24,074 nucleotides of DNA from a virus: positions 1-24,074 of IMG/VR virus record IMGVR_UViG_3300040808_000895; one strand, given 5' to 3'. Within the stretch, counting starts at the first letter, position 1, and every line of letters starts with the position of its first letter. The notes under the pieces were generated by a model. It was not told the DNA's origin and ran no database searches. It was given only the letters and a program-made list of their open reading frames with translations. The position numbers and the translations under genes are program-made. Positions 3,941-24,074 of the stretch are shown here, in pieces.

Positions 3941-4556
3941 GTTAGTTTTTGGTAGTTTAATTTTTAAAACAAAAATGCCTAATCACGAAGAAATTAAACA
4001 AGGATTTTTGCCTTTTTTAAATGATGACAACGCATTTAATACTTCTAATAGATGGGACTGTAACTGTGATACTACAATGCATCACGAAGAACTTAATAGT
4101 AAATTACCTTGGAATTTATTTTTCCAAAATATACAACCAGGACTAGGACCGTACTTGCAAGAAATCGGTCTTAAACAAGAATATAAAGACAAAATACAAT
4201 CTTATGCGTGGGCTAATAGATATCATCAAGGACAACATCAAGAAGTACACGCACATTCCGGCGATAATAATTTAGTGAGTTGTGCGTATATTTTAGATCA
4301 AGCAGGAGAAAATACTGCTGAAAATGACGGTATGTATGGTCAATTTATTTTTTATAATAGTGCGTCAGAGCCATTTTCTCCGTTTCAAATGCATTTATTT
4401 GAAGAACCCGAAAGATGGACTGCAAGACACAATCCGTTTTTACAAGAAGGAGATATTGTGTTTTTTCCGAGTACGCTAAATCATTATGTCACGTGGAATA
4501 AAAGTGATACTATAAGAGCATCAATTAGTGCTAACTTTAGAATTTTAGAAGATTAA
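3933..4556 (+). CDS. 2OG-Fe(II) oxygenase superfamily protein
   Basis: A 207-aa protein. The ATG at 3933 follows AAGG by about six bases and overlaps the end of the carbamoyltransferase gene; a TTG at 3927 is in frame but less likely. The double-stranded beta-helix core is visible as EVHAHSGDN (H106 and H108 at the iron-binding H-x-D/H site), GQFIFYN, EGDIVFFPSTLNH (distal H184) and R195 followed by ASISANF. This is the pattern of the putative 2OG-Fe(II) oxygenases common in marine T4-like phages. The substrate is unknown; hydroxylation of a sugar, lipid or protein is possible. It ends convergently against the phosphatase gene, the two stop codons sharing TTAA. It is the third gene of a tightly packed plus-strand unit. 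Confidence 0.72.
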   Translation: MFELVFGSLIFKTKMPNHEEIKQGFLPFLNDDNAFNTSNRWDCNCDTTMHHEELNSKLPWNLFFQNIQPGLGPYLQEIGLKQEYKDKIQSYAWANRYHQGQHQEVHAHSGDNNLVSCAYILDQAGENTAENDGMYGQFIFYNSASEPFSPFQMHLFEEPERWTARHNPFLQEGDIVFFPSTLNHYVTWNKSDTIRASISANFRILED

Positions 4557-5236
4557 CGATCTAAATAATCTGCAAACTGAGCAAGATCGTCAAATATGAT
4601 GGTCTTTTTCTTTATCTTTTGATTACTAAATTTATTTAATTCTTTAATAGTCTCTTCGCCATAACCGGTACGTACTAATACAGGTTTTGCACCCATTTTA
4701 AATGCAGCTTTTAGATCTGATATCTTATCACCTACAAAGAATCCTTTGGAAAATTTAATAAAGGGCATTTCTTCTTCACACCTCTTAAACATACCCGTGT
4801 TAGGTTTTGCAAAGCCGTCTGCTCTTAGACTAGTCTCACTGTAATACAATGCATCAATACTGGAACACCCTGCTTTGCCCAATAGATCAAACATATGATC
4901 GTGTACACGTTCTACATCGTCTGTTGTATAGATACCTTTTGCTATTCCGCCTTGATTAGTAATAATTGCAATTTTATGACCTAAACGTCTAATCTTAGCA
5001 ATAGCTTCTAAACTACCCGGTATAGGCTCAAAGTCTTCAACTCGATAAGTATATTCACCCCTGTCAACATTGATAACACCGTCTCTGTCTAAGCCGACAA
5101 CAACTTTAGGTGCAATATTATGAACAGGATCATAAAAAGGAATGTCCTCAGGTTTAGGCTGATTAGTCCATCCCATATTAGTTTTAGGTGTTTGTTCTTG
5201 TTTCTTAGGAGCATTACTCCACATATTGTATGCCAT
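4553..5236 (-). CDS. gmhB: GmhB-like HAD phosphatase (heptose bisphosphate phosphatase)
   Basis: A 227-aa protein, last gene of the minus-strand sugar operon; its ATG directly follows the stop codon of the 2OG gene. HAD motifs are clear: motif I LDRDGVIN (D50 and D52), motif II TNQGGIAKG (93-101), the K-P of motif III (144-145) and motif IV VGDKISD (D170, D174). The D-R-D-G-V-I-N and N-Q-G-G-I motifs fit the GmhB/HisB-N group, which removes the 7-phosphate of D-glycero-D-manno-heptose 1,7-bisphosphate. Two things are odd. The first 44 residues are a Pro/Gln/Asn-rich extension absent from typical GmhB. The Cys/His zinc-binding loop usually found just before K-P is missing. The HldE and HldD genes in the same operon support the heptose assignment; a different sugar phosphate remains possible. 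Confidence 0.75.
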   Translation of the reverse strand: MAYNMWSNAPKKQEQTPKTNMGWTNQPKPEDIPFYDPVHNIAPKVVVGLDRDGVINVDRGEYTYRVEDFEPIPGSLEAIAKIRRLGHKIAIITNQGGIAKGIYTTDDVERVHDHMFDLLGKAGCSSIDALYYSETSLRADGFAKPNTGMFKRCEEEMPFIKFSKGFFVGDKISDLKAAFKMGAKPVLVRTGYGEETIKELNKFSNQKIKKKTIIFDDLAQFADYLDR

Positions 5237-5803
5237 CTAAATACCTACATTAAATGCAATAGTAGTCCTTACTACGTCTATTCTTTTTGTAACTACCTTG
5301 TGTTTTAGATATGAAGGGAACAACACTAGTCTTCCTTTTTCTGCTTTAACATCATAATGTGCTTGAAAGAAGGGTTTAGAGCCATCGTGATGTTGTACAT
5401 ATTCTGCAATAGTATTCGGATTATAAAATCTAATGTAGCCTGCATTTTCGTTAGCACGTAGCCAGTAAACGCCACTAATACCATCAATGCCGTGGCCGTG
5501 CATATCGTGGCCTTCATCGTCTTTGTAGTCTTGGGTCCAGTAGTGCAGTCCTTCGCCAGTTTGTATACTGGTTGCTTCTTTATATTCAGCAATACATTTA
5601 GCCCATTCGTCGGTTAGCTCAGGAGCAATTTCGTGATACAGGATTTTAGTTTCCCAGAAATCTGAACGACGGTAATCATAATCATCTCCGTTGTTTTCTA
5701 ACTTGTCTAACTCTGGGACAATACGTGTTTCTAATTCATCTGCTAAATCAGCAGGAATACGGTAGTCTAAAATTGGAACTGCAAAAAAACTACTTACTGT
5801 CAT
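5237..5803 (-). CDS. 2OG-Fe(II) oxygenase superfamily protein (operon copy)
   Basis: A 188-aa protein counted from the ATG at 5803; a GTG four codons upstream at 5815 is possible, and neither has a strong ribosome binding site. The fold markers are F-F-A-V-P near the start, H-D-M-H-G-H (H99, H102, H104) followed by SGVYWLRANENAGYIRFYNP, then LVLFPSYLKHKV (distal H168) and R179 before TTIAFNVG. The layout matches the oxygenase at 3933-4556, including an H-x-H at the iron site, but overall identity is low. The window therefore carries two members of the family on opposite strands flanking the convergent point. It overlaps the end of the cupin gene and abuts the phosphatase start, so it is translated from the same operon. 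The substrate is unknown. Confidence 0.72.
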   Translation of the reverse strand: MTVSSFFAVPILDYRIPADLADELETRIVPELDKLENNGDDYDYRRSDFWETKILYHEIAPELTDEWAKCIAEYKEATSIQTGEGLHYWTQDYKDDEGHDMHGHGIDGISGVYWLRANENAGYIRFYNPNTIAEYVQHHDGSKPFFQAHYDVKAEKGRLVLFPSYLKHKVVTKRIDVVRTTIAFNVGI

Positions 5804-6194
5804 CTTGTTTGTCACTCAACTTTTGACTGTCACCTGGACCGATACGGTAATTGTCTTCTACACTGTCAGGTGTACTTACTTCAGTAACACTACCTTCTTT
5901 AGATAAGCAAATTAATTGATGCGGCTGTAATGGTGGATTATGCCAAGTAGAACCTTCTATTAGCTCTTGCTCATAAAGTTTAGAATCTTTAGTGTCGATC
6001 CATTTTACTTTAAACTTGCCACTATTAACAAACCAAGTCTCGTCTTTTTCTCTATGAAAATGCATACTGGTCTGTCCCATTTCTCTGTTGAATACCATAA
6101 TTTTACCACAATACTTTTCATTTGTGGCCCAAATCATTTCGTAACCCCAACCTTTTTGGTCGACGCCACTTTTTCTAGTTGGTTGCTGTTCCAT
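5790..6194 (-). CDS. Single-domain cupin related to sugar-phosphate isomerases
   Basis: A 134-aa protein. Its ATG lies inside the end of hldD (20-base overlap) and is preceded by AGAGG. The cupin metal site is visible as H45-F-H47 with E52 (motif 1, MHFHREKDETW) and H92 in PPLQPHQLI (motif 2). The opening W-G-Y-E and the later S-T-P-D segment resemble type II mannose-6-phosphate isomerases and the cupin part of mannose-1-phosphate guanylyltransferases. A sugar isomerase or epimerase role in the same pathway is the natural inference. Because no GmhA is visible, it could be tested as a replacement isomerase, but nothing in the sequence proves this. The C-terminus (about 115-134) is a polar tail rich in Asp, Lys and Ser. 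Confidence 0.65.
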   Translation of the reverse strand: MEQQPTRKSGVDQKGWGYEMIWATNEKYCGKIMVFNREMGQTSMHFHREKDETWFVNSGKFKVKWIDTKDSKLYEQELIEGSTWHNPPLQPHQLICLSKEGSVTEVSTPDSVEDNYRIGPGDSQKLSDKQDDSK

Positions 6195-6993
6195 TAATAT
6201 ATTCCTCTACTGTTGCAAAGTTAATATCTGTAACTTTACTTAATTTATCTATGTTTGCACACGTATATTCCTGATACTGTGATTGTAAGTAATCGGGCAT
6301 TGGAATATACTCTATAGTTGCATTGTATGTTTTTGCAACTAGATCTGCTATTTTTTGAAAGCTCTCAGCTTTTCCTGTACCAATATTAAAAAGGCCCGGT
6401 TTTTTATTTTCTAACAACTGCTTATGTGCTTCGCAAACATCGCCTACAAATACAAAATCTCGTTCGTATTGGTCGCTGTTTTCAAATAGTGCAATAGTGT
6501 TATTTTCTTTTGCTTGTTTAATAAATTTTGTTATAGGACTTGCTTGATTACCTTTGTGATCTTCTAGCGGCCCGTATACATTAAAATAACGAAAGCCTTG
6601 AACACAAACTTTATGCTCTTGTTGCCACACCCATCTGTCGAACAAATACTTACTCCACGCATACGGTGATTGTGGAGACTTTGGATCATCTTCTCCAAAT
6701 TTTTCATACGGTCCGTAAACACTTGCACTAGAAGCATATTGAAAATTAACTCCTTTTGAGTTGCATTGGTTATAGAGCCATTTACTAAATTCGTAATTCT
6801 GTAGCATTACTTTATCTACATCTTGTTCTACTGTGCTTGATATTGCACCAACGTGTATAACCCAATCAAACCCTTCAACTTCGGGTAAGTGTTCTTCCTG
6901 CCATTCATATCCAAATAGTTCGTGATCTGGTTGTAAATAAAAAGTTAGGTTTTGACCAATAAAACCTTTGTGTCCTGTAATTAAAATTTTCAT
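6175..6993 (-). CDS. hldD: ADP-L-glycero-D-manno-heptose 6-epimerase-like SDR
   Basis: A 272-aa extended short-chain dehydrogenase. The NAD(P)-binding GHKGFIG is at 7-13, a catalytic Ser lies in ASSASVYG (about 87-94), and Y111-x3-K115 is in YAWSK. The segments FRYFNVYGPLEDHKG (134-148), ERDFVFVGDV and YIPMPDYL are characteristic of HldD (RfaD), which inverts C6 of ADP-D-glycero-D-manno-heptose; in particular the V-Y-G-P-x-E-x-H-K-G region is diagnostic. It is somewhat shorter than E. coli HldD (about 310 aa). The ATG overlaps the hldE stop codon as ATGA and has GAGG upstream. The product would be the sugar donor for heptosyltransferases such as the GT9-like protein nearby. A related NDP-sugar epimerase cannot be excluded. 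Confidence 0.82.
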   Translation of the reverse strand: MKILITGHKGFIGQNLTFYLQPDHELFGYEWQEEHLPEVEGFDWVIHVGAISSTVEQDVDKVMLQNYEFSKWLYNQCNSKGVNFQYASSASVYGPYEKFGEDDPKSPQSPYAWSKYLFDRWVWQQEHKVCVQGFRYFNVYGPLEDHKGNQASPITKFIKQAKENNTIALFENSDQYERDFVFVGDVCEAHKQLLENKKPGLFNIGTGKAESFQKIADLVAKTYNATIEYIPMPDYLQSQYQEYTCANIDKLSKVTDINFATVEEYINGTATN

Positions 6994-8129
6994 TCCTGTG
7001 CCTCTAATATTTTAGTTGTACTGTAACCATTGACTGTAGGTACAATGTGTACAGGTGCTAGATCGTGTCCAACAATTTCTTCTACGGTATAATCACCACC
7101 TTTAACAATTAGATCCGGTTGCAATTCTTTGATAAGCTCGTATGGAGTATCGTTGTCAAATACAATAACTTCGTCTACATACGGTATTAATAATAGTTGT
7201 TCCATACGTGTTTCCACGTCGTTAAACGGTCTTAGAGCGCCTTTTAAACGCTTTACGCTGTCATCGCTGTTAAGACCTACAATTAACTTATCACCTTGCA
7301 TACGAGCTTCTTTTAGCAAGGTAAGATGTCCTTTATGTAATATATCAAAGCATCCATTTGTAAATACGACCTTTTTCTTTAGATCGTTTTCTGTTAAAAT
7401 GTATGTGCCTACGTGCTTAACACTTTCAGTTGATCCTTGTACTGCAAGTGTAATTGCGCTTTCGTAATCATATTTTTTAGTAAGTGCATAAACAAATGTT
7501 GCTAAGAAGCAATCACCTGCACCTGTAACATCTGATACTTCAATACGTTCTACAGGCACGTTATACATAATATCGTCTATATTTCCAACAACATTATCGC
7601 CTGCATTAGTTACGATAAAATTACCCTTCCAATTTGTAAATTCAAAGTCCTTGAACTCTTTGTGGTTAGGTTTTACAAGCCACGCACCTTCGTATTGATC
7701 TGCGTGTTTTTTAGGATCTACAATTACCTTACAGCCAAATGTGTTTAGATATTTTATAATTTCTAATGACTTGTCTAGCACACCTTTGTTGTAATCACTT
7801 AGTATAACATATGTGTATTCGCTAAAATCTTTCTTTAGGATATTCTCTAATACAAGTTCACTGTTTGCAATAACATCGTCGTCTATACGTGTAATATAAT
7901 GTCCATCGCATAGTACTCTTGTTTTAATACTTTTAGGATAGTCATAATCAAATAGGTCTACATCAACACCTAGACTTTCTAAGTTTTTGTAAACTAATCC
8001 TGCACCACCCTGTGTTTCTATAATGTGTTCTTGTGTAACTACAGGTACAGGAGCCTCCGGACTCAAACGTGTGCTTGTTCCGTAGATATATCTGTCAATT
8101 ATTATGTCACCGATTATAAGAACTTTCAT
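6990..8129 (-). CDS. hldE: Bifunctional heptose-7-phosphate kinase / heptose-1-phosphate nucleotidyltransferase
   Basis: A 379-aa two-domain protein counted from the ATG at 8129, which directly begins the conserved MKVLIIGDIIIDRYIYG; a TTG five codons earlier is in frame. The first domain (1 to about 245) is a PfkB/ribokinase-type kinase with T-R-L-S-P-E-A-P-V-P (19-28), a Gly-rich Q-G-G-A-G and the catalytic T-G-A-G-D (202-206). The second domain (about 250-379) is a cytidylyltransferase-fold enzyme with FTNGCFDILHKGH; the H-x-G-H motif is at 265-268 and V-K-G-G-D-Y follows. This order is that of HldE (RfaE), which phosphorylates heptose 7-phosphate at C1 and later adds AMP. At 379 aa it is about 100 residues shorter than E. 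coli HldE, mainly in the kinase domain. No clear Shine-Dalgarno sequence is visible. Confidence 0.88.
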   Translation of the reverse strand: MKVLIIGDIIIDRYIYGTSTRLSPEAPVPVVTQEHIIETQGGAGLVYKNLESLGVDVDLFDYDYPKSIKTRVLCDGHYITRIDDDVIANSELVLENILKKDFSEYTYVILSDYNKGVLDKSLEIIKYLNTFGCKVIVDPKKHADQYEGAWLVKPNHKEFKDFEFTNWKGNFIVTNAGDNVVGNIDDIMYNVPVERIEVSDVTGAGDCFLATFVYALTKKYDYESAITLAVQGSTESVKHVGTYILTENDLKKKVVFTNGCFDILHKGHLTLLKEARMQGDKLIVGLNSDDSVKRLKGALRPFNDVETRMEQLLLIPYVDEVIVFDNDTPYELIKELQPDLIVKGGDYTVEEIVGHDLAPVHIVPTVNGYSTTKILEAQE

Positions 8130-8156
8130 ATTACTACTATACAATCTTTTACCGGA

Positions 8157-8591
8157 TTAGTCAAGTAAATCTATTACTTCAAATACAGTTTTTAATTTAG
8201 AAAGATTGACCTTTTTTGTAAGAGTGTTTTGCAAACCAAAATGTAACGGCTTGGGCCAATGCCCGAAACTAACCCAAGCATAACCGTCGTGTTCGTTATT
8301 AAGTGCAGGCAAAAATTCATTGTTTACTACACACAAATACGTATGAAAATGAAACTTAGTGTCGTTAGATACAAATGTTTCTAACGGAATAGTTTTTTTA
8401 ATTTTTATTGTTCCTATCTCTTCAAATATTTCACGTTTTAAGCCTTCCCAAGGAGTTTCTTCTCCTTCGTTAGTGCCGCCAACAAGCCCCCAAACTTTTT
8501 TGTTTTTGCCGTTAACTCTATGTAAAAACAAAAAACGTTTAGTATCGAGAGAATATAGTAGTGCTCCACTACAAATAATTTGCTTGCTCAT
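8157..8591 (-). CDS. Nudix hydrolase
   Basis: A 144-aa protein with a complete Nudix box: G39, E45 and R53-E-I-F-E-E-I-G60 fit G-x5-E-x7-R-E-U-x-E-E-x-G-U exactly. The surrounding fold (SGALLYSLDTKRFLFLHR at the start) fits a small NTP or nucleotide-sugar pyrophosphohydrolase. It starts 13 bases after the gp15 stop and precedes hldE, so it probably belongs to the same transcript. It might clean up nucleotides or NDP-sugars made by the operon; the substrate cannot be read from the sequence. A TATAAT-like hexamer on the minus strand at 8604-8599 lies just before the start, but no -35 box is visible. Confidence 0.85.
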   Translation of the reverse strand: MSKQIICSGALLYSLDTKRFLFLHRVNGKNKKVWGLVGGTNEGEETPWEGLKREIFEEIGTIKIKKTIPLETFVSNDTKFHFHTYLCVVNNEFLPALNNEHDGYAWVSFGHWPKPLHFGLQNTLTKKVNLSKLKTVFEVIDLLD

Positions 8592-8604: not shown

Positions 8605-10035
8605 TTAGAAATTTAAACGCCAGGTGCCGTTTGGATACTCGCCTTCGAAAGAAAGCAACCAATCATTACCATCAAATTTATATTGTACACCAGTGGTTAA
8701 ATTTGTAGTATAAACAGTTCCATAAACACTTAGGTCAACGTCTGCGTCAAATACAATAGTCCACTTTGATCCATCCCATTCAATTATGTCATTAGCGTTT
8801 GCTACAAAATCACTATTGTCTAGATTCTTCCAAGCATCTGCACCATCTTTATTTGCAGAATTTCCTATATCACCTAAAATAAGTATTCTTGGATTACCAG
8901 ACAATTGAAGATCATTCGGATTAGTTTTTAGAGGATCTATGATATAGTCAATTTTATTCCTTGTCCCAGCTTCGCTTGATATTGAAGTGTCTGTAGGAAT
9001 TGTATCTTCGTCCCAAATGACTGTTGCTTCTGTTTCATCCAACGGATTAATTGCTAATGCTCCTATGACATCAAAGGGCATATCTGCTCTGGTTAGTCTA
9101 ACTTGTGTAATTCCGTCTTGGAATTTTTGAGGAAATGCAAGCAAAAACTCTGGCCAAGATTTGCCGCCTACATTGCCTTTGTCGATTAATTTAATTGTAG
9201 TGTTAAGAACAAGTAGTCCTGTGTTTTGGTAACTAGTTGGCGCAACAGTAAGCCTAGTTTGAGTATTTTCCCAGTATGCTTCTGTTTTTCCTCTTTGTAA
9301 GTCGCCATTTTCGTCGATATAAATCTTTGTACTAATTTCAGCTGCATCGTCGATATCGTCAATTTCACTACCTTGGAATACTCTACTAATAACGTCAGTA
9401 ACAATGCCCAAACGCTTTACTTTAGTGGGCGGACTAATATAAATCGGTGTTGTAAAAGTTAATGAACCTACATCAATTTCTGATTCAGTTCCTGTAGGAA
9501 TACTTCTTGAACTCCACGAGATATTATCTAAGTTAACAACACTTAAACTAGTCCAGTCAAGATAATTATCAGTAGTTTGTATTTCTAAACTTGGATTAAA
9601 CAACATTAAAACTTGTTCCATAATTTGTAACTTTTGTTCTGTATTTGTAGTCCAAATGTCAACATTTACTGATAAAGTATATGGTGTAGGCATTAATCTT
9701 TCAACTGTATAGTTTTTACCTTCTTTGTTTAGATACTCATTATTATTTTCGTCGAACGCTCTTTCTCTAATGTGTGCTTTACTTACATAACTAGAATCAC
9801 TAGTTCTGCTTCTATCCATTTCAAGGCCAGTAACGTAAATTCCCATTCTAGGAGCACTTGGAATTTTATTTTCTGAATTATCTCTTAAAATACTTCCTAC
9901 TTGTCTTGTAATATCTCCATACATTACAGGAATTGTTGTAAGATTGCCTTTACCGTCTTTGTAACTAAAGCCACTCATCATCCTAATCAACTGTGTAAGA
10001 TAACGTCTTATTTGTCCGTCATAAAAATGTTGCAT
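8605..10035 (-). CDS. 15: gp15-like tail sheath stabiliser / tail completion protein
   Basis: A 476-aa protein. The N-terminal domain matches T4 gp15 in pattern: F-Y-D-G-Q-I-R-R-Y at 4-12, then I-P-V-x-Y-G, then MPTPYTLSVNVDIWTTNTEQ, a polar Gln-Ile-x-Glu-Gln helix with LMLFNPSL, and a late P-I-Y-I-S-P-P segment. T4 gp15 (272 aa) forms the hexameric ring that caps the sheath and joins it to the neck. The protein here is about 200 residues longer. The extra C-terminal part ends in short modules of the type W-D-G-S-K-W and Y-K-F-D-G-N-D-W (about 420-459). The start overlaps the gp14 stop codon (TAATG). Unlike T4, gp15 lies on the strand opposite to gp13. Confidence 0.8.
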   Translation of the reverse strand: MQHFYDGQIRRYLTQLIRMMSGFSYKDGKGNLTTIPVMYGDITRQVGSILRDNSENKIPSAPRMGIYVTGLEMDRSRTSDSSYVSKAHIRERAFDENNNEYLNKEGKNYTVERLMPTPYTLSVNVDIWTTNTEQKLQIMEQVLMLFNPSLEIQTTDNYLDWTSLSVVNLDNISWSSRSIPTGTESEIDVGSLTFTTPIYISPPTKVKRLGIVTDVISRVFQGSEIDDIDDAAEISTKIYIDENGDLQRGKTEAYWENTQTRLTVAPTSYQNTGLLVLNTTIKLIDKGNVGGKSWPEFLLAFPQKFQDGITQVRLTRADMPFDVIGALAINPLDETEATVIWDEDTIPTDTSISSEAGTRNKIDYIIDPLKTNPNDLQLSGNPRILILGDIGNSANKDGADAWKNLDNSDFVANANDIIEWDGSKWTIVFDADVDLSVYGTVYTTNLTTGVQYKFDGNDWLLSFEGEYPNGTWRLNF

Positions 10036-11408
10036 TATAAGTCTGCCTTAGGTCTAAGCACAGTACTGAGGCTCTGTCTTTGTGCTTCTCTGTTGTTATA
10101 AATTATTACTTCCCATTGACCTGTATATTTGACAGAGGATTGTACTCCGTTGACCACAGGTAAATTAACAACAGCCTTGCCATTACCGTTGTCTGTTATT
10201 AAATCTGGATAGTCTGCTATTACAAAACCATCTTCAACAACTTTGTACTTAAGAACAAGATACAATCCTGTAATAGGGTAATTAATGTCTGTGCTGAATG
10301 AAGTATCACCTTCATAAAGATTTTTAAAATCACTAATAACTTTGTCGTTATAAGTAAATTGTGTATTATTAATAAACGAAGTTTTCTGAGTCATTCTATC
10401 ATTACTATTTGTCATTGTCATACGCACAGCGTCTTGTACTTTGACCCACCTAGTACCGTCATATCTAAACATACGTTTTGGTAAAAAGTCTGTACGTAAA
10501 AAGTAGTCTCCTGGATTAGCGCCAATTGGAAATTGAATTCCGTGACCAAATGATTCTCCATTTGGTGCGCCGTCATCTCCTAATAAGTATCCGTCATACC
10601 CCGGTTTAGGAGGATGAGTGGTAACTGTTTCTCCGCCTACTTTTTCTACTTCGACATTGCCTTCAGTATCTGTATTGAGAGTATAATAGTGTCCTATATC
10701 ATATCCGCTTTTACCAGCATCTACTTCTGCTTGTTCTAACACTGCATTATTAATTTGCATTTCTTTTTCGTAAGTAGAAAGCATATTTCTAAGAGTATCA
10801 CCGTTATCATTATCTGCGTCAGCAGGTAAATCAAGAATTTCTTTAAATTCTTGCGAGTCAACTATTTGTTTTAGTTTAAGTCTATATAAATGAGGATACC
10901 ACGTAGGACTAAATCCTTCGCTTGCACGATTCACATCTTCTACAACATAAAAGCGTTTTAATGCTAATTTATAATCGTTAAGTGCGTATTCGTCTTTTTG
11001 GTGTGGAAGTTCAAGGACATCACCGCTCATAATTTTTCTACCAAGAGTTTTTACACTACTATTGATAGGAATAGTCATAAACAACGTGTCGTTATCTAAA
11101 AACATACCAAATTGTGAAAGATTAAAGTCTACATCTTGCACATTATAAATGCCACGCATTGTATAGATATTAGGATCGTATTTTCTATCTCTGTTTTCTA
11201 AAAATAACAAATCTTGAATATTTGTTTCTTTAACAGCGTCATAGCGAGGACGATCAGCTGTAGCATCTACCTCATCTGGATTTTCTGGGCCTAGGTACTT
11301 GTGAACATTGATGTCAGTGCCACCAATAGTAAACATTTCTGTGATCTGTCGATCTAAAAATGTGTAGTCCTTACCCTTTTCTGGTTTGTATAAACTTAAT
11401 CTTGGCAT
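10035..11408 (-). CDS. 14: gp14-like neck protein
   Basis: A 457-aa protein counted from the ATG at 11408; an ATG two codons upstream at 11414 lies inside the late promoter and would not be transcribed if T4 spacing holds. Segments such as NIQDLLFLENRDRKYDPN, FGMFLDNDTLFMT and LGRKIMSGDVLELPHQKDEY fit my recollection of gp14 neck proteins of marine T4-like phages. T4 gp14 (256 aa) helps form the collar that joins head and tail. The protein here is about 200 residues longer. It contains G-D-Y-F-L-R-T-D followed by F-R-Y-D-G-T-R-W (about 300-320), a module also seen in gp15 and gp18. It is followed by gp15 with a one-base overlap, and appears to be transcribed from a late promoter five bases before its ATG, giving a leaderless message. 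Confidence 0.75.
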   Translation of the reverse strand: MPRLSLYKPEKGKDYTFLDRQITEMFTIGGTDINVHKYLGPENPDEVDATADRPRYDAVKETNIQDLLFLENRDRKYDPNIYTMRGIYNVQDVDFNLSQFGMFLDNDTLFMTIPINSSVKTLGRKIMSGDVLELPHQKDEYALNDYKLALKRFYVVEDVNRASEGFSPTWYPHLYRLKLKQIVDSQEFKEILDLPADADNDNGDTLRNMLSTYEKEMQINNAVLEQAEVDAGKSGYDIGHYYTLNTDTEGNVEVEKVGGETVTTHPPKPGYDGYLLGDDGAPNGESFGHGIQFPIGANPGDYFLRTDFLPKRMFRYDGTRWVKVQDAVRMTMTNSNDRMTQKTSFINNTQFTYNDKVISDFKNLYEGDTSFSTDINYPITGLYLVLKYKVVEDGFVIADYPDLITDNGNGKAVVNLPVVNGVQSSVKYTGQWEVIIYNNREAQRQSLSTVLRPKADL

Positions 11409-11413
11409 ATACA

Positions 11414-11421
11414 TATTTATT
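11414..11421 (-). promoter_or_regulatory. T4-type late promoter (AATAAATA) for gp14-gp15 and the downstream operon
   Basis: On the minus strand TAAATA (11419-11414) is followed by five bases and the gp14 ATG at 11408. By T4 spacing initiation falls on the A of that ATG. It is the mirror partner of the plus-strand promoter at 11423-11430, with one base between the two octamers. No terminator is visible between gp15 and the sugar operon, so this promoter may also supply the heptose genes. Confidence 0.65.
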
Positions 11422-11422
11422 C

Positions 11423-11430
11423 GATAAATA
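11423..11430 (+). promoter_or_regulatory. T4-type late promoter (GATAAATA) for gp13
   Basis: GATAAATA with predicted initiation near 11436, leaving a 13-base leader that holds the Shine-Dalgarno sequence AGAGGA before the ATG at 11449. It is divergent from, and nearly overlapping with, the gp14 promoter, so one late RNA polymerase would be expected to block the other. Confidence 0.7.
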
Positions 11431-11448
11431 CTTTACAGAGGAATTCAT

Positions 11449-12204
11449 ATGTCATTAGCTACACAGAAACAAGAAATATTTGATTACGTAAACGCAATGC
11501 TCGGTGGAGGTATGATTGATGTTGAGTTAGACCCAGTTCATTACGAAACTGCTCTAGCAAAAGCATTATCTCGCTTCAGACAAAGGAGCGATAATGCAGT
11601 AGAAGAATCATATATGTTTATGCCCACAGTACTTGATCAAAATACTTACACATTGCCAAAAGAAGTGGTAGAAGTTCGTCAAATCTTTAGACGTTCGATT
11701 GGCTCGCGTAGTGGCGGCGGCGATGGCGGGACATTGTTTGAGCCGTTTAATATGGCATATACAAATACCTATATGATGGCAAGTAGTAATTTAGGTGGTT
11801 TAGCAACATATGATTTCTTTAGCCAATATCAAGAATTAGTAGGACGTATGTTTGGTTCGTTTATAGAATTTAAATGGAATACTACAAGCAAGCAACTTAC
11901 AATTCTTCAACGCCCGCGAGCAGAAGAAAACCTAATGTTGTACGTTTATAACTATCGTCCTGATAGTGAATTACTATCAGACTATCTAGTGGTACAGTGG
12001 ATTAAAGATTATACACTTGCTAGTTGTAAGTATATGCTAGGCGAAGCACGTTCAAAGTTTGCTACTATTGCTGGACCACAAGGCGGGTCAACTCTTAATG
12101 GAGATGCATTAAAGGCAGAAGCTCAACAAGAGATGGAAAAACTTGAACAAGAAGTTATTCAACAGGTAGCAGGCGGTGTAGGCTACGGCTTTACTATCGG
12201 TTAA
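11449..12204 (+). CDS. 13: gp13-like neck protein
   Basis: A 251-aa protein with AGAGGA upstream of the ATG. The order of features matches gp13 neck proteins of marine T4-like phages: an N-terminal helix of the type Q-E-I-F-D-Y-V-N-A-M-L-G-G-G, E-L-D-P-x-H-Y-E-T-A-L-x-K-A-L, YMFMPTVLDQNTYTLP, a Gly/Ser-rich loop, then YNYRPDSELLSDYLVVQWIK and a C-terminal helix rich in Glu and Gln. T4 gp13 and gp14 together close the head after packaging and make the tail-docking site. In T4 genes 13, 14 and 15 run consecutively on one strand; here 13 stands alone on the plus strand, divergent from 14-15. The gene is not followed by an obvious terminator. Confidence 0.8.
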   Translation: MSLATQKQEIFDYVNAMLGGGMIDVELDPVHYETALAKALSRFRQRSDNAVEESYMFMPTVLDQNTYTLPKEVVEVRQIFRRSIGSRSGGGDGGTLFEPFNMAYTNTYMMASSNLGGLATYDFFSQYQELVGRMFGSFIEFKWNTTSKQLTILQRPRAEENLMLYVYNYRPDSELLSDYLVVQWIKDYTLASCKYMLGEARSKFATIAGPQGGSTLNGDALKAEAQQEMEKLEQEVIQQVAGGVGYGFTIG

Positions 12205-13067: not shown

Positions 13068-13332
13068 CACAAATTGTTTTTAAGTTACTAGGACGGCAAT
13101 TATCAAGATTGCCATCTATATGAAATACATTAAACTGTTCTTCGTGTTTGCTATGGTATCCGCACTTCTCACAAGTATCTAGCTTTTCGTAACCACGTTG
13201 CTTCCACTTCGGTATTCCGTGCCCTACACCATTTCGCAAACAAGTTTCACACAGCCTACGATAGTATGTTCTTTTTCCTTTTTTATAGTTTATAGCAGCA
13301 GGACGTTGTCCGCACTTACATAACGGTCTCAT
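12997..13332 (-). CDS. HNH-type zinc-finger protein
   Basis: A 111-aa protein with three pairs of metal-binding cysteines in addition to the HNH core: C5-x-C7, C28-x2-C31, C54-x2-C57 and C88-x2-C91. The core is VFHIDGNLDNCRPSNL with H71 and N78, followed by ICANCQR. In typical HNH nucleases the last motif is C-x2-C-H; here the residue after C91 is Gln, so the final His is missing. A DNA nicking or binding role is likely for the fold; full nuclease activity is uncertain. The ATG lies four bases after a minus-strand GCTAAATA box, with no Shine-Dalgarno sequence between. It is convergent with the kinase gene and overlaps it by 71 bases; the conserved-looking ending K-Q-G-D-L-V-P-D-F suggests that the overlap is genuine. 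Confidence 0.75.
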   Translation of the reverse strand: MRPLCKCGQRPAAINYKKGKRTYYRRLCETCLRNGVGHGIPKWKQRGYEKLDTCEKCGYHSKHEEQFNVFHIDGNLDNCRPSNLKTICANCQRILQKNGVTWKQGDLVPDF

Positions 13333-13336
13333 ACTG

Positions 13337-13344
13337 TATTTAGC
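13337..13344 (-). promoter_or_regulatory. T4-type late promoter (GCTAAATA) for the HNH gene
   Basis: On the minus strand GCTAAATA (13344-13337) is followed by CAGT and the ATG at 13332. The four-base spacing predicts initiation within one base of the start codon. AGGTGAG lies upstream of the promoter and would not be in the transcript. Confidence 0.55.
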
Positions 13345-13399
13345 TCACCTTTTTGACCCCTTTTTCAGGGTGTTTAACGCACCGTTTTTATTACAAGCT

Positions 13400-13407
13400 G
13401 CTAAATA
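13400..13407 (+). promoter_or_regulatory. T4-type late promoter (GCTAAATA) for the sheath gene
   Basis: GCTAAATA with predicted initiation near 13413, giving a 36-base leader with AGGAGA (13437-13442) before the sheath ATG at 13449. The 12 bases TAACAGGAGAAC of this leader are repeated exactly in front of the tube gene. Confidence 0.7.
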
Positions 13408-13448
13408 CAAGTAGCAAAACTACGATTCGTAATAACAGGAGAACGATA

Positions 13449-16400
13449 ATGGCATTAACATCCCCAGGAGTAGAAGTCAAAGTAATTGACGAAAGTTTCT
13501 ACACTCCGGCAGAGCCTGGCACAACACCGATGATCTTTGTTGCTTCTGCGTCCAACAAGCTAAATGCTAGTGGAACAGGAACAGCACAAGGTACGCTCAA
13601 GGCAAACGCTGGTAAACCATACTTATTAACATCACAACGTGATCTAGCAGATACGTTTGGTGATCCGTTGTTTTATACAGATAACAACAATAACCCAATT
13701 CACGCTGGCGAGCTTAACGAATATGGATTGCAAGCAGCATATTCATATTTAGGTGTTTCAAACAGAGCGTGGGTTGTTAGAGCAGATATTGACTTAGCAG
13801 AAATTCAGCCTAGCTCAGATGCACCGGCATCAACTCCAGCAGCTGGCACATATTGGCTAGACACACAAACATCACAATTTGGTATTCAAGAATGGAATGG
13901 CGCAGGTGCTACAACAACCGGCGGCCAAACATTTACAAGTAAAACACCGATTGTAATTACAGATTCGACAAAATTAACAGACGGAAGTTCAGTAGTTAAC
14001 GGAACAACTGGTAAAATGCCAAAAGCAACTGTCGGTGCAATTGGCGACTATGCAGTTGTATTTGGATCAACTATTGCTAGAATGTTCTATAGAAATGCTA
14101 CAGGTACTTGGGTATTAGTAGGATCAGAAGCTTGGACAAAGAGTTGGGCAACAGTACGTGGCAACAAGTCTAACCCATCTTTTTCACAGTCATCTACAAC
14201 ATTTACAATTAACGGAACAACAGTTACAGTAACAAGTTCTAATACAATTGGCGAAGTTGCAACAAATATTGTTTCACTATTTCCATTAGGAAATATTAGT
14301 GCAGCAGCAGTAGACGGACGTTTAGAAATTTACAGCGATGGTACAGACAGTGCTGAACAGGATTCTTCAGCAGTAGGTTCTCTAGAAATTAGCGGTGATT
14401 CAACATTACTAGGCGAACTTGGTATTGCATCAGGTACTTACTATCCACCAGAACTACATATTGACAAGCATACTAGAGTTCCTGCATTTAAAGCAAGTGA
14501 TTCTTATCCACGTCCAACAGGGTCTGTATGGATTAAAACAACTGAGCCTGGAAATGGCGCACGTTGGAGAATGAAAGTATTTAACGATGCTACTAAAATT
14601 TGGGACGCAGTAGCCGCTCCAATTTATTCGTCAAACGAAGAAGCATTATACTGGTTAGATAAATTAGGCGGCGGCGCAAATATTGCAGCTGGTGATGTTT
14701 ATGTACAATCTAATGTAGCAGGCGATTCACAAAAACTAGCAACTTTTAAAGTATTCAGACGTAATGCAGTTGCACCAACAACAATTATTGGAGCAGCTAT
14801 TGGATCAAATGGTATTACAGCAGATACATATAACTTAGGTATCCAAGCAACAGCACCTAACTCTAATGCACTAAGCACTATTGCTGTTATTGAATTTACA
14901 ACAACAGGTGCAGCAACTGATGCAGATGTAATTGCAGAAGCTATTACAAATGCAGGTGTAGCCCACGTTAATGCAGAAGTTACTACAGGAAACAAAATTG
15001 TAATTACACACGCAAAAGGCGGAGATGTTAAATTAACTGACGACGGTTCAACACCAGTGTTAGGTAATGCAGGCTTTGCACATTTTGCAAATGTAAACAA
15101 CGGAACACCAAACCTATACTACGAGCCAGGAACAGATGGCGACACTGCTCCACTACAACTTCGTGGTACATTATGGAAGGCAACAATTAACGCTTCAGGT
15201 ACAGAAGTAGCATTTTATACTGCATCTGATGATGAAGTTACAGCACTAACAACTGATGGTGCATTATGGTATAATTCAATTGTTGACGAAGTTGACATTA
15301 TGATTCATAATGGTGACACTTGGGTTGGTTATCATAACTACAGTGCAGAATATGCTGATTGTGATCCTAACGGTCCGATTGTAAGTGCAAGCACACCATT
15401 ACTACAAAGTGACGGTACAGCTCTTGTAAATGGTGATTTATGGATTAGCACAGCTGATTTAGAAAATTATCCATTAATTTATCGCTACAATGCAGACCTA
15501 CAAAACACACCAATTGCAAATCGTTGGATTCTACTAGATAAAGCAGATCAAACAAGTGAAAATGGTGTACTATTTGCAGATGCACGTTACAACACAGCAG
15601 GTGCAAACAGTGGTACAGCAGGTGATATTGATGTATTACTAACTTCAAATTACTTAGATCCAGATGCACCAGATCCAGCACTATATCCAAAAGGTATGCT
15701 GCTTTGGAATTTAAGACGTTCTGGCTTTAATGTTAAGAAGTTTGTACGCAACTACATTGATATTAACAGTGACAACGAACGTTTAAATGACGAAGCAATG
15801 GGTTCTTACTATCCACATAGATGGGTAACAGAGTCAGGTAACCAAGGTGATGGTTCAGGTAGCTTCGGACGTATGGCACAGCGTAAGGTAGTTGTACAAG
15901 CGTTACAAGCTATGTTAAACAGCAACGATGATATTAGAGACGACGAATCAAGAATCTTTAACTTGATGGCAACTCCAGGATATCCAGAGCTAATTGGTGA
16001 AATGATTACACTAAACTATGACAGAGGCCTAAGTGCATTTGTTATTGGTGATACACCAGCTAGATTAAAATCAGATGCAACATCACTAAACAACTGGGCA
16101 ACAAACCAGGCACTAGCACCAGAGGACAACGACGATGGCTTAACTAGCCGCGATGAGTACTTTGGTATCTTTTATCCTTGGGGCTTCACAAGTGACAATG
16201 CAGGAAATAACGTAGTTGTTCCGCCAAGTCATATGATGCTACGCACAGTTGCACTAAGTGATCAAGTTAGCTATCCTTGGTTTGCACCAGCAGGCACAAG
16301 ACGTGGTGGTATTACTAATGCAACAGCAACAGGGTTTGTAGATGCAGAAGGCGAATTTGTAACAGTAGCGTTGAACGAAGGTCAACGTGATACATTATAC

Positions 16401-16808
16401 GCACAAGCAATTAACCCAATTACATTCATTAGTGGTGCAGGACTTGTAAACTACGGTCAAAAGACTCGTGCAAGAGGTTCAAGCGCATTAGACAGAATCA
16501 ACGTAGCACGTTTGGTAATTTACCTACGCAGCCAGTTGAATCAACTTGCTAAGCCTTACATCTTTGAACCAAATGATAAGATTACACGCGATGAGATCAA
16601 ACAAGCAGCAGAGAGCTTAATGCTCGAGCTTGTAGGTCAAAGAGCATTATACGACTTCTTAGTAGTATGTGATGAATCAAACAATACTCCAAGCAGAGTT
16701 GATAGAAATGAACTATACTTAGACATTGCTATTGAACCTGTTAAAGCAGTTGAGTTTATTTACATTCCACTAAGACTTAAAAACACTGGAGAAATAGCAG
16801 GGTTATAA
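13449..16808 (+). CDS. 18: Tail sheath protein gp18 (enlarged)
   Basis: A 1119-aa protein. The ATG at 13449 follows AGGAGA by six bases and starts the sheath signature ALTSPGVEVKVIDESF; an upstream in-frame start at 13353 precedes the promoter and is rejected. The N-terminus (1 to about 130) and the C-terminal third (LLWNLRRSGFNVKKF onward, then FEPNDKITRDEIKQAAESLM and LYLDIAIEPVKAVEFIYIP) match T4-like contractile sheath proteins. T4 gp18 has 659 residues. The extra length is a large middle region with several W/Y-containing modules (G-x-x-W-[ILY]-x-[TS] near 133, 358, 604 and 662) and two Thr/Ala-rich domains. These probably form surface-exposed domains on the sheath. The protein contracts to drive the tube into the host. 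Confidence 0.92.
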   Translation: MALTSPGVEVKVIDESFYTPAEPGTTPMIFVASASNKLNASGTGTAQGTLKANAGKPYLLTSQRDLADTFGDPLFYTDNNNNPIHAGELNEYGLQAAYSYLGVSNRAWVVRADIDLAEIQPSSDAPASTPAAGTYWLDTQTSQFGIQEWNGAGATTTGGQTFTSKTPIVITDSTKLTDGSSVVNGTTGKMPKATVGAIGDYAVVFGSTIARMFYRNATGTWVLVGSEAWTKSWATVRGNKSNPSFSQSSTTFTINGTTVTVTSSNTIGEVATNIVSLFPLGNISAAAVDGRLEIYSDGTDSAEQDSSAVGSLEISGDSTLLGELGIASGTYYPPELHIDKHTRVPAFKASDSYPRPTGSVWIKTTEPGNGARWRMKVFNDATKIWDAVAAPIYSSNEEALYWLDKLGGGANIAAGDVYVQSNVAGDSQKLATFKVFRRNAVAPTTIIGAAIGSNGITADTYNLGIQATAPNSNALSTIAVIEFTTTGAATDADVIAEAITNAGVAHVNAEVTTGNKIVITHAKGGDVKLTDDGSTPVLGNAGFAHFANVNNGTPNLYYEPGTDGDTAPLQLRGTLWKATINASGTEVAFYTASDDEVTALTTDGALWYNSIVDEVDIMIHNGDTWVGYHNYSAEYADCDPNGPIVSASTPLLQSDGTALVNGDLWISTADLENYPLIYRYNADLQNTPIANRWILLDKADQTSENGVLFADARYNTAGANSGTAGDIDVLLTSNYLDPDAPDPALYPKGMLLWNLRRSGFNVKKFVRNYIDINSDNERLNDEAMGSYYPHRWVTESGNQGDGSGSFGRMAQRKVVVQALQAMLNSNDDIRDDESRIFNLMATPGYPELIGEMITLNYDRGLSAFVIGDTPARLKSDATSLNNWATNQALAPEDNDDGLTSRDEYFGIFYPWGFTSDNAGNNVVVPPSHMMLRTVALSDQVSYPWFAPAGTRRGGITNATATGFVDAEGEFVTVALNEGQRDTLYAQAINPITFISGAGLVNYGQKTRARGSSALDRINVARLVIYLRSQLNQLAKPYIFEPNDKITRDEIKQAAESLMLELVGQRALYDFLVVCDESNNTPSRVDRNELYLDIAIEPVKAVEFIYIPLRLKNTGEIAGL

Positions 16809-17526: not shown

Positions 17527-17555
17527 AAAAAGGGAGCCACTGAGCTCCCTTTTTT
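17527..17555 (+). terminator. Strong Rho-independent terminator after the tube gene
   Basis: An 11-bp stem AAAAAGGGAGC/GCTCCCTTTTT (17527-17537 with 17544-17554) closes a 6-base loop, and the T-run continues past the stem. The GC-rich core next to a T-run is the classical form. A-rich DNA on the other side could make it work in both directions. Confidence 0.9.
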
Positions 17556-17580: not shown

Positions 17581-17588
17581 GATAAATA
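17581..17588 (+). promoter_or_regulatory. T4-type late promoter (GATAAATA), leaderless type
   Basis: GATAAATA is followed by five bases (TTAGT) and the ATG at 17594. By T4 geometry initiation falls on the A of the start codon. No Shine-Dalgarno sequence lies between the terminator and the gene. Confidence 0.7.
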
Positions 17589-17593
17589 TTAGT

Positions 17594-18874
17594 ATGGCAA
17601 AGTTCACAGGTTTTTTAGATAACGTAGCAAATGGTATATTAAGTCCAAAAGGCAATATGGCTGATTGGCAACACGCCTCTCGACTATATGTTACAGATAC
17701 ACAGAAACACGCACCTAAGGTTTCTTTCCTTTATCACGTAACATTTTATCTTACTGAACAAGCAAAGGCAATTATACCTGAAGTTGATCAGTATAAACAC
17801 GAAATTGGAATGCTTGTAAAACAAGCAGACTTACCTAAGTTTACTGCACAAGTTGAAGTAAAAAACAAATATAACAGAAAAAAGAATGTTCAGTCAAGAC
17901 TAGACTATTCTCCAATCAATATTACATTCCACGATGACAATTATGGTGCTACTACAGCACTTATGGAGGCGTATAATAGATATTATTTTGCAGACATAAA
18001 TCATTCTCTAAACGACGGTGCATATGGTAATAGACGTACTGGCGATACACTCTATGACGGCCCAGGAACAAATACATTTAAATTTGGTATGGACAATAAT
18101 ATACCAAATGTTCCATTTTTTGATAGAATAGAAATTGCACAAATGGCTCGTAAGAGCTATACAAAGTATACCCTAGTAAACCCGATTGTTACTGGTTGGG
18201 AACACGATAATGTAAACAATTCAGATAGTAATCCTTTAGAAAATAGAATGACTATCCAATATGATACTGTGTTCTATGACAGGGGTCACGTAGATGCAGG
18301 TGAAAACGGAGATCCAGCTGGATTTGGTAAATCCGATCATTATGATAGAACACCAAGTCCTATTACACCATTAGGTGGCGGACAACTAGGAATAGATGGT
18401 ATTTTTGGAACAGGTTTAGACTTATACGAATATATCACACAAGGTAAGAATTTTAGTAATCCGCTAGAAGCAGGAATTGCAGCAGTTAATTTGTTCCGTA
18501 GTGTTAGAGACAACGGAACCGATGGCCTTAGAGAAGGCGGATTTAGATTACTTACTGATGTAATTGGCGGCGCAGCAGGAATTGACGTATCAGGTGTTTC
18601 TCAAACATTCTTTCCAAAAAGTCAAGGAAGGGGCGGAGATGCAGGAACATTACTTGTTGCTACAGCAGCGGTAGCAGGACTAACTTCTGTTGTTAGAAAT
18701 TCAAATACATCAACATCAAGCAGCACCGGAGATACAAGTCCGCAAACAATTGATGATTTAAGATTTCAAAACTTTCAAAAACAATATCAAGCCAACGGAG
18801 GGACTGGCGGAATAAACGGAGCAAGAGTAAGTTTTGATGCATTGTCAGATGCAGCAAAAACCACATTCGATTAA
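17594..18874 (+). CDS. gp19-like tail-tube-fold virion protein
   Basis: A 426-aa protein. The N-terminal 130 or so residues have the tube-fold pattern: PKVSFLYHVTFYL (41-53), then IGMLVKQADLPKF (71-83), V-E-V-K-N-K-Y-N-R-K-K, and S-P-I-N-I-T-F-H-D-D (106-115). These line up with K-Q-V-V-D-V-T-R-P, V-Y-N-S-R and I-T-L-N-L-R-E-D in the true tube protein just upstream, so the two look like distant paralogues. The rest (about 230-426) is Gly, Ser and Asn rich with a hydrophobic stretch near 350-366 (LLVATAAVAGLTSVV). Candidates are a tube-tip protein of the gp48/gp54 type or a tube terminator; the sequence does not decide. The start has no ribosome binding site and lies five bases after a late promoter. 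Confidence 0.6.
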   Translation: MAKFTGFLDNVANGILSPKGNMADWQHASRLYVTDTQKHAPKVSFLYHVTFYLTEQAKAIIPEVDQYKHEIGMLVKQADLPKFTAQVEVKNKYNRKKNVQSRLDYSPINITFHDDNYGATTALMEAYNRYYFADINHSLNDGAYGNRRTGDTLYDGPGTNTFKFGMDNNIPNVPFFDRIEIAQMARKSYTKYTLVNPIVTGWEHDNVNNSDSNPLENRMTIQYDTVFYDRGHVDAGENGDPAGFGKSDHYDRTPSPITPLGGGQLGIDGIFGTGLDLYEYITQGKNFSNPLEAGIAAVNLFRSVRDNGTDGLREGGFRLLTDVIGGAAGIDVSGVSQTFFPKSQGRGGDAGTLLVATAAVAGLTSVVRNSNTSTSSSTGDTSPQTIDDLRFQNFQKQYQANGGTGGINGARVSFDALSDAAKTTFD

Positions 18875-18886
18875 TAAGGAATTAAA

Positions 18887-19255
18887 ATGTCAAGTTTACC
18901 AAAAGAAGCCCCAGATAATTATAGCGACAAAGGAGTAACTAAATTCTTTGATAACTACTTTTCAAAAGAATTAAGTTTTCCATCTAATCAAGTTGATGCT
19001 GTTGTAACCTTTTTTACAAAAAGAGGCTTTGATAAAACATCAGCAATTAGTGTTGCAACTACATTACTTCAGCAGGCAAAGATCGATAATGTAAAAATAT
19101 TTCAGCTACTAGATACATTAACAGGATTAAATGAAATTCAATTAAGTTCAATTGTTACAGAAGTATTAAACTATAATAGGCCAAAAACAAGTACATTAGG
19201 ATTTAAACGAACCGAGTCAGCTGATAAGATTGAAAAAAGAAATATAGTAGCGTAA
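18887..19255 (+). CDS. Small conserved-looking protein, function unknown (122 aa)
   Basis: A 122-aa protein with AAGGA seven bases before the ATG, 12 bases after the tube-like gene, so it is translated from the same message. It has an N-terminal part with V-T-K-F-F-D-N-Y-F, a helical centre (AISVATTLLQQAKIDNVKIF) and a Lys/Arg-rich C-terminal tail. No motif identifies it. Its place between a tube-fold protein and the head-completion nuclease gp4 suggests a minor virion or assembly role, but this is inference from position alone. Confidence 0.7.
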   Translation: MSSLPKEAPDNYSDKGVTKFFDNYFSKELSFPSNQVDAVVTFFTKRGFDKTSAISVATTLLQQAKIDNVKIFQLLDTLTGLNEIQLSSIVTEVLNYNRPKTSTLGFKRTESADKIEKRNIVA

Positions 19256-19256
19256 G

Positions 19257-19697
19257 ATGGCTAGGTTTGCCCAAGGAAAGTTTACACCTAAGTTTCCTGA
19301 AAAATACATAGGAACACGCACTCCAACTTACAGAAGTAGTTGGGAATTCCACTTTATGAAATTTTGTGATGAACATCCTAGTGTAGAAAAATGGGCAAGT
19401 GAAAGTATTCGTATTCCTTATAAGAATCCATTAACTGGCAAGCACACAATTTATGTTCCAGATTTTTTTATTTCATATACTGATAAGTCGAAGGGTAAAA
19501 GGGTCGAACTTATAGAAGTAAAACCAGCAAATCAAACAATTAGAGAAAAAGTCGGTAAATCAAGAGTAAATCAAGCAAGTTATATTGTAAATCAAGCAAA
19601 GTGGGCAGCAGCATATGCATTTTGTAAACAAAAAGGTATCATATTTAGAATAATTACTGAAAATGATATTTTTCATCAAGGAGGCAAAAGACGCTAA
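19257..19697 (+). CDS. 4: gp4-like head completion protein (TnsA/PD-(D/E)XK nuclease fold)
   Basis: A 146-aa protein starting two bases after the previous stop, close to the length of T4 gp4 (150 aa). The nuclease fold is visible: E30 in YRSSWEFHFMKF, D69 in YVPDFF, and E87-V-K89 in ELIEVKP, an arrangement like TnsA and other PD-(D/E)XK enzymes. The helix RVNQASYIVNQAKWAAAYAF follows. In T4 gp4 (also called gp50) is needed to complete filled heads before tail joining, probably by trimming DNA. All expected catalytic residues are present. The stop codon TAA doubles as the first half of the TAAATA box of the next gene. Confidence 0.85.
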   Translation: MARFAQGKFTPKFPEKYIGTRTPTYRSSWEFHFMKFCDEHPSVEKWASESIRIPYKNPLTGKHTIYVPDFFISYTDKSKGKRVELIEVKPANQTIREKVGKSRVNQASYIVNQAKWAAAYAFCKQKGIIFRIITENDIFHQGGKRR

Positions 19698-21578: not shown

Positions 21579-21586
21579 ACTAAATA
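21579..21586 (+). promoter_or_regulatory. T4-type late promoter (ACTAAATA), leaderless type, for terminase
   Basis: TAAATA (21581-21586) is followed by five bases (TTAAT) and the terminase ATG at 21592. It begins two bases after the terminator T-run, so the terminator and promoter fill the whole gap. Initiation by T4 spacing is on the A of the ATG, with no room for a Shine-Dalgarno sequence. Confidence 0.7.
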
Positions 21587-21591
21587 TTAAT

Positions 21592-23172: not shown

Positions 23173-23178
23173 TAAATA
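23171..23178 (+). promoter_or_regulatory. T4-type late promoter (GATAAATA), leaderless type
   Basis: GATAAATA overlaps the terminase TGA stop (23170-23172) and is followed by CTTTT and the ATG at 23184. The five-base spacing again places initiation on the start codon. Confidence 0.68.
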
Positions 23179-23183
23179 CTTTT

Positions 23184-24074
23184 ATGAAGAGTCTTGACAA
23201 CATAGCAGAAGATCTATTTAATAAAATTCGCGGAAGGTTCCCTAGCGTTACTATCGGCGACGAAGCAGGAAAAGTTACTAATGATCCAATTGTAGCTCGC
23301 TTTTTTGATTTTGATTACAAAGAAGGAGATAGAAATATCGGTAAAGTAAGTATTTCTATCAGTGAAGATAAACTTGCTGTTATGTATAGCAACAGTTTTG
23401 TAGAAAACGAAGATACAATTACTAGGCAAAACTGGTATAACTTTTTGAAAGAATTACGTGTGTTTGCTAAGAAAAGATTACTACAGTTTGATACTAGAGA
23501 TATTACTAAATCAAACTTAGACAAGAGAGATTATAAATTCCTAGCGCAACAACGAGGCGGAGAACAAACAATGAGCGAGTCAACAATGTACGGTACAAGT
23601 AAAGTCAGCTACCAAGATATTGGTAATGCAAGACTAACTATTAAGCATACTGAAAGTGTAAACCAAGAACAATCAACAGGTAGAACAAGAAAAATTGGTG
23701 CTATCTACGTAGAAAACACAGACGGTGAAAGATTTAAATATCCTTATAAACATCTAAACGGTGCAAGAGCAATGGCAAGACACGTTGCAGAAGGCGGAAA
23801 GCCATATGATGATTTCGGTAAACATATTACAGGACTGTCAGAAGAACTAGCTAATTTACGCAAATTTAAAACTTATATGAATCGCTCAAGCGTAATGGCA
23901 GAAGGTCTAGCAGGATATATGGGTGCTGTTGCTGAAAGACTTGAAACAATTAAAAAGACTGTGTCCGGCCTACAAAAAGAATCATTCTATAAACAAGCAT
24001 TTGAATCTTATGAAGTACCTGTTGTAGAAGATGTACCAAACGATGTTGCAGAAAATTGGATCGACGAACTTACT
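23184..24074 (+). CDS. Large protein of unknown function downstream of terminase (partial)
   Basis: The frame is open from the ATG at 23184 to the right edge of the window: 297 codons with no stop. I do not recognise the family. The N-terminus (M-K-S-L-D-N-I-A-E-D-L-F-N-K-I) looks helical and is followed by an alpha/beta region (about 30-110) with F-F-D-F-D-Y and N-W-Y-N-F-L-K-E-L-R-V-F-A-K-K-R-L. A middle segment with repeated charged strands (IKHTESVNQEQS, IGAIYVENTDGERFKYPYKH) leads to a helix with H-L-N-G-A-R-A-M-A-R-H. The rest is helical and charged. It may be a virion-associated protein, judging by its own late promoter and position after terminase; this is inference only. No Shine-Dalgarno sequence precedes the start. 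Confidence 0.8.
   Translation, partial: MKSLDNIAEDLFNKIRGRFPSVTIGDEAGKVTNDPIVARFFDFDYKEGDRNIGKVSISISEDKLAVMYSNSFVENEDTITRQNWYNFLKELRVFAKKRLLQFDTRDITKSNLDKRDYKFLAQQRGGEQTMSESTMYGTSKVSYQDIGNARLTIKHTESVNQEQSTGRTRKIGAIYVENTDGERFKYPYKHLNGARAMARHVAEGGKPYDDFGKHITGLSEELANLRKFKTYMNRSSVMAEGLAGYMGAVAERLETIKKTVSGLQKESFYKQAFESYEVPVVEDVPNDVAENWIDELT

Follow-up and report, generated by a model that had tools for sequence, protein, structure and literature searches.

The inverted repeat TATTTATTCGATAAATA, which occupies positions 11414-11430 of the window (namely, the whole 24,074-nucleotide stretch of viral DNA analysed here), most likely represents two separate, outward-facing late promoters of the T4 type, one for the gp14-like neck gene on the minus strand and the other for gp13 on the plus strand. 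Based on the sequence and on the geometry of T4 late promoters, the gp14 mRNA would be leaderless while the gp13 mRNA would carry a leader with a Shine-Dalgarno (SD) sequence. We assign a probability of roughly 0.7 to this reading.

Results

The repeat is composed of the following parts.

11414-11420, minus strand: box of the gp14 unit, AATAAATA as read on the minus strand; TATTTA[TG] in 88/88 distinct relatives
11421-11423: spacer TCG separating both boxes; 2-19 nt in relatives
11424-11430, plus strand: box of gp13, GATAAATA; [AC]TAAATA in 88/88 relatives

On the minus strand, AATAAATA is followed by TGTAT and then by ATG CCA AGA, and on the plus strand, GATAAATA is followed by CTTTACAGAGGAATTCAT and then by the ATG of gp13 (11449), which is 18 nt past the end of the plus arm. 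The 7-bp arms, the three-base gap and the coordinates 11414-11430 given in the initial annotation are all exact. At position 11414, the last A of the minus arm coincides with the opening base of the longest gp14 ORF (10035-11414), and the minus box hence touches the annotated start codon of gp14; this contact had been overlooked. Within the window, the repeat is not above the chance level: when up to two mismatches are allowed, 0.86 matches are expected and one (exact) is found, and ATAAATA is even rarer (6 occurrences) than in shuffled sequences (11.7). Significance of the repeat from the window alone was thus rejected, given that near-matches (~0.9) are expected in AT-rich DNA; the repeat by itself is unremarkable there, and it is conservation, as judged from the sequences of relatives, that confers significance.

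Indeed, both arms occur as [AC]TAAATA in all 88 distinct regions with divergent gp14 and gp13, which form 65 clusters at a gp13 nucleotide identity of 85%, compared with 2 of 17,600 shuffled regions. The two genes are divergent in all 157 IMG/VR loci possessing both of them (the loci from both queries overlap), and the mirror arrangement, the conservation of which the initial annotation had proposed to check, is kept in every close relative examined. The boxes are separated by 2 to 19 nt across relatives, and the predicted starts lie 28 bp from each other in the window and 27-44 bp in the relatives; these distances fall at 27-28, 31-33 and 42-44 bp, leaving an unexplained empty range of 34-41 bp. 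In the more distant Sinorhizobium phage Phosso and Agrobacterium phage Atu_ph07, gp14 and gp13 likewise diverge and each side has an NTAAATA-like box; gp14 of these phages is, however, preceded by an SD-like leader, unlike gp14 in the clade of the window. In PA5oct-like phages, gp14 and gp13 are about 21 kb apart. A DNA search for near cultured relatives yielded nothing beyond a short match (72%) to Atu_ph07, and matches in genome collections were confined to contigs binned as a Neomarinimicrobiota MAG, possibly misbinned phage. Two such contigs (153 and 335 kb) encode a gp13 81% identical to that of the window and have the same promoter pair; they are probably phage contigs binned with the bacterium.

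A T4-type late promoter consists of an 8-bp TATAAATA-like box at -13 to -6 without a -35 element, and the T4 late promoters use gp55-gp33-gp45. Boxes of this type (NATAAATA) were found upstream of late structural genes, and unpaired single boxes precede tube, tube-like and sheath genes in the relatives. In non-redundant related DNA (803 kb), furthermore, 82% of the 245 ATAAATA sites have an ORF start within 40 nt downstream, as compared with 10-18% for six other A/T-only 7-mers used as controls. Sigma70 promoters were rejected, as their matches occur at shuffle frequency. Five of the seven long contigs from relatives, as well as Phosso and Atu_ph07, encode a gp55-type late sigma (phrog_12791/phrog_234); the search covered the relatives, the contig of the window being too short to hold this gene. 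Relatives of the window resemble T4 in having the gp55-type sigma but differ in that gp33 and gp45 were not detected with the profiles used (phrog_254 and PF09116), which do match T4, although the relatives may be incomplete or diverged. This failure to detect gp33 and gp45, as well as the T4 spacing being assumed for a diverged sigma, is counted against our preferred explanation. Judging from the sequence, nonetheless, both arms behave as T4-type promoters, in agreement with the earlier assignment of a minus-strand late promoter to gp14-gp15 and a plus-strand one to gp13.

The two transcription units that would start from the repeat contain the following features.

11408, minus strand: predicted +1 of the gp14 mRNA, the A of the conserved ATG that is codon 3 of the long ORF (T4 geometry; PMC2988020)
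10035-11408, minus strand: gp14-like neck/virion protein gene (phrog_11591; weak match to T4 gp14)
8605-10035, minus strand: gp15-type tail sheath stabiliser (PF16724), in the gp14 operon without a box of its own
4553-8591, minus strand: Nudix, heptose/nucleotide-sugar, dioxygenase and isomerase-like ORFs in close succession, plausibly transcribed with gp14
11436-11437, plus strand: predicted +1 of the gp13 mRNA, approximate, from the same T4 geometry
11437-11442, plus strand: Shine-Dalgarno sequence AGAGGA of gp13; SD upstream of gp13 in 77/77 relatives
11449-12204, plus strand: gp13-type head-tail adaptor (phrog_211, E 4.6e-33)

The T4 late box spans -13 to -6, and A(-13) in place of T is mentioned (PMC2988020); +1 is therefore the sixth base past the box, and a gap of 5 nt puts +1 on the A of ATG. 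At gp14, the gap between the box and ATG is exactly 5 nt in 67 of 73 distinct upstream regions, and none of the 73 regions contains an SD core, as expected of a leaderless mRNA. Because M3-P4-R5 of gp14 is nearly invariant among relatives and Phosso gp14 has its SD-led start at the residue equivalent to M3 of the gp14 in the window, the true start is probably M3, but not M1, of the ORF 10035-11414. At gp13 of the same genomes, which serves as the control with an SD in 77 of 77, the gap is 16-22 nt. A leaderless gp14 mRNA is thus predicted beside a leadered gp13 mRNA.

The name gp14 is a weak one and is taken from the gene position and from the slight similarity to T4 gp14 (hhalign E 0.038, 68 columns); the protein had no match in Pfam and no sequence match in PDB, and its AlphaFold model (pLDDT 45.6) was unusable for fold comparison. 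As for gp15, no NTAAATA was found within 45 nt in 82/82 relatives. Since the minus-strand genes are closely packed from 11408 to 4553 and no further minus-strand ATAAATA was found in the window, the sequence suggests that the Nudix, heptose and oxygenase ORFs are plausibly carried on the gp14 transcript. While genes 13 to 20 are on one strand in T4, genes 14 and 15 in the window are inverted relative to 13, 18 and 19.

The arrangement of box, 5 nt and ATG is also found at other genes in the window.

17582-17596, plus strand: box + 5 nt + ATG of a tail-tube-like gene (start 17594), a second predicted leaderless gene; gap of 5 nt in 19/21 relatives
21580-21594, plus strand: CTAAATA + 5 nt + ATG of the large terminase gene (start 21592; PF03237)
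23172-23186, plus strand: box + 5 nt + ATG of the gene after terminase (start 23184); same layout in the homologue of relative G001

At 12242, a box has a gap of 4 nt to the start. A small minus-strand gene (111 aa, MRPL...; start 13332) that diverges from the sheath gene is preceded by CTAAATA at a distance of 4 nt from its ATG (13332-13343), and the gap is 4-5 nt in 69 of 71 relatives. In contrast to these genes is the SD-led class: gp19 has an SD in 42/42 relatives. In the sheath ORF (13353-16808), the listed TTG start at 13353 is too far upstream, and the ATG at 13450 behind AGGAGAA is the likely start, with a CTAAATA box ~40 nt upstream. We also noticed a strong intrinsic terminator (17527-17554) immediately upstream of the tube-like gene at 17594, which is predicted to be leaderless, and a similar hairpin with a run of T in front of the terminase gene (21592).

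On the genome scale, boxes having the ATG of an ORF of at least 70 codons exactly 5 nt away were counted. Such boxes amount to 7 of 54 in the 267-kb relative G001 (0.12 expected) and 8 of 42 in Pelagibacter phage HTVC008M (0.11 expected), with a weaker signal in a second relative, G006 (2 of 47), and 1 of 66 in P-SSM2. None was found among 65 boxes in T4, 38 in Syn9 and 102 in Atu_ph07 (400 kb of it). Given the enrichment in G001 and HTVC008M and the zero in T4, the layout is not general among T4-type phages but appears in two marine lineages.

Discussion

Several other explanations for the repeat need to be considered. That the palindrome itself acts as a hairpin, a cruciform or an operator for a dimeric protein is very improbable. 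In favour of such a function, CG...CG brings the arms to a length of 9 bp in 49 of 88 regions, a higher frequency than that seen at single boxes; CG is found just inside the boxes in 34/42 and 40/61 cases in the pair, and C is found there in 7 of 103 single boxes. The excess of these CG flanks in the pair is left unexplained by two independent promoters and also counts against our preferred explanation. The innermost pair of the arms is, however, broken in 12 of the 88 regions with no compensating change of the partner (0 cases), and all of the variants remain within the promoter motif; it is therefore the two promoters, but not a hairpin or operator, that are conserved. A spacer of 2-19 nt also excludes an operator with fixed spacing. 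Longer spacers fold no better than shuffled sequences, the repeat is absent from both predicted mRNAs, and no Rfam family matched; with the uncompensated variants, the folding at shuffle level and the absence of an Rfam family, a hairpin was rejected. If the two arms are promoters, it is still conceivable, albeit unlikely, that gp14 is not leaderless, with transcription starting a few nucleotides before the site given by the T4 geometry or with longer transcripts coming from upstream. A few relatives indeed have ATG 7-8 nt from the box, which would give a leader of a few nucleotides, and sigma70-like matches exist on the minus strand within gp13, albeit at shuffle frequency. Nonetheless, the gap spikes sharply at 5 nt, the T4 distance, with almost none at 6-7 and 9-12 nt, and the same gap recurs at unrelated genes and in HTVC008M; moreover, an SD is absent in all 73 upstream regions of gp14, so a longer transcript would not help this gene.

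The initial annotation had further claimed that late RNA polymerases do not occupy both promoters at once. With predicted starts 28 bp apart, well inside the footprint of one polymerase, simultaneous occupancy is implausible, and this claim is sterically likely, as far as the geometry of the predicted starts tells. It had also been proposed that the exclusion may work as a switch or balance gp13 against gp14, gp15 and the sugar operon, which found no support in our analysis and which we consider improbable. The distances (27-44 bp in relatives) do fall within one polymerase footprint, and in E. coli bidirectional promoters, strong activation of one direction can lead to repression of the weaker one by exclusion (PMC12825309). 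Competition matters there only with strong activation, however, and at basal activity the loss of one direction leaves the other unchanged, with exclusion having no effect (PMC12825309). In the window, furthermore, an identical box is used on both sides with no distinguishing regulation or regulator site found, the spacer drifts among relatives, and the same layout is applied to other gene pairs, 26/51 in T4 and 2/4 in HTVC008M. Exclusion would thus be a matter of geometry, and a switch is unsupported.

In the preferred reading of two late promoters, a gp55-type sigma with RNA polymerase would open either box late in infection, and on a given molecule one polymerase would load in one direction at a time. 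Over many genome copies, both units would fire repeatedly late in infection, and the pair would co-induce two late units, namely gp14-gp15 (plus the ORFs behind) and gp13. The minus promoter would start the gp14 mRNA on the A of AUG for leaderless translation, while the gp13 mRNA would have a ~13-nt leader with the Shine-Dalgarno sequence; the two neck genes would accordingly be co-induced but differ in the mode of translation start.

Similar layouts can be found in known systems. In T4, back-to-back boxes (TATTTATCATATTTATAAATA, 116441-116461) are located between the divergent late genes 26 and 51; the box is the same as that in the window, but the genes are different, both have SD-like leaders, and no T4 box is 5 nt from an ATG-led ORF. 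HTVC008M has tight back-to-back boxes (TATTTATATCTAAATA) between the divergent genes 2 and 4 (18392-19440 region), where the annotated starts of gene 2 (DNA end protector; 18916, minus strand) and gene 4 (head closure; 18943, plus strand) are 27 bp apart and each start is 5 nt from its box, on the predicted +1. As distinct from the window, both sides are predicted to be leaderless, and the gene pair and the phage lineage are different; these promoters were not described as back-to-back in the open-access PMC literature found. The pairs in T4 and HTVC008M therefore make tight divergent late promoters a recurring T4-type layout. The E. coli bidirectional promoters reported by Warman, Grainger and colleagues use a single symmetric -10 element for both directions, and their starts are commonly separated by 10, 18 or 23 bp (PMC12825309). 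Like the window, their divergent starts are near enough for polymerase exclusion, but the window has two separate boxes, 2-19 nt apart in relatives, with starts 27-44 bp apart; a bidirectional promoter with a shared -10 was thus rejected. Leaderless mRNAs are known from bacteria such as Sinorhizobium meliloti, which has 171 of them (PMC3616915), and gp14 resembles them in its predicted start on the A of AUG and in having no SD. It differs in that the predicted leaderlessness is built into a class of phage late promoters and concerns several structural genes. No account of leaderless late mRNAs in T4-type phages was found in a search of the open-access PMC literature, an absence that is no proof of novelty.

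In conclusion, the back-to-back layout is an economy of the T4 type but not a new switch, and the new element should be the gp14 mRNA predicted to begin with AUG beside a gp13 mRNA with an SD leader. With such a difference between the two mRNAs, any balance of the neck proteins may be set when translation starts. More tentatively, and at somewhat less than even odds, a marine T4-related lineage and, separately, pelagimyophages such as HTVC008M would have joined late promoter and start codon into one element of box, 5 nt and AUG, so that a subset of the structural genes is leaderless and the others are SD-led; in the gp14/gp13 pair, the two modes would be neighbours, with the neck stoichiometry set by the mode of translation start instead of promoter choice. 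Because HTVC008M is a cultured phage on Pelagibacter ubique with the same feature, the leaderless claim is directly testable. The rule of late box, 5 nt and AUG, which requires sequence only, predicts transcription starts and corrects start codons (M3 but not M1 in gp14), and it may bear on the unsuccessful prediction of late promoters in a study on pelagimyophages (PMC7029224). The same rule marks a predicted class of leaderless genes in uncultured marine phages.
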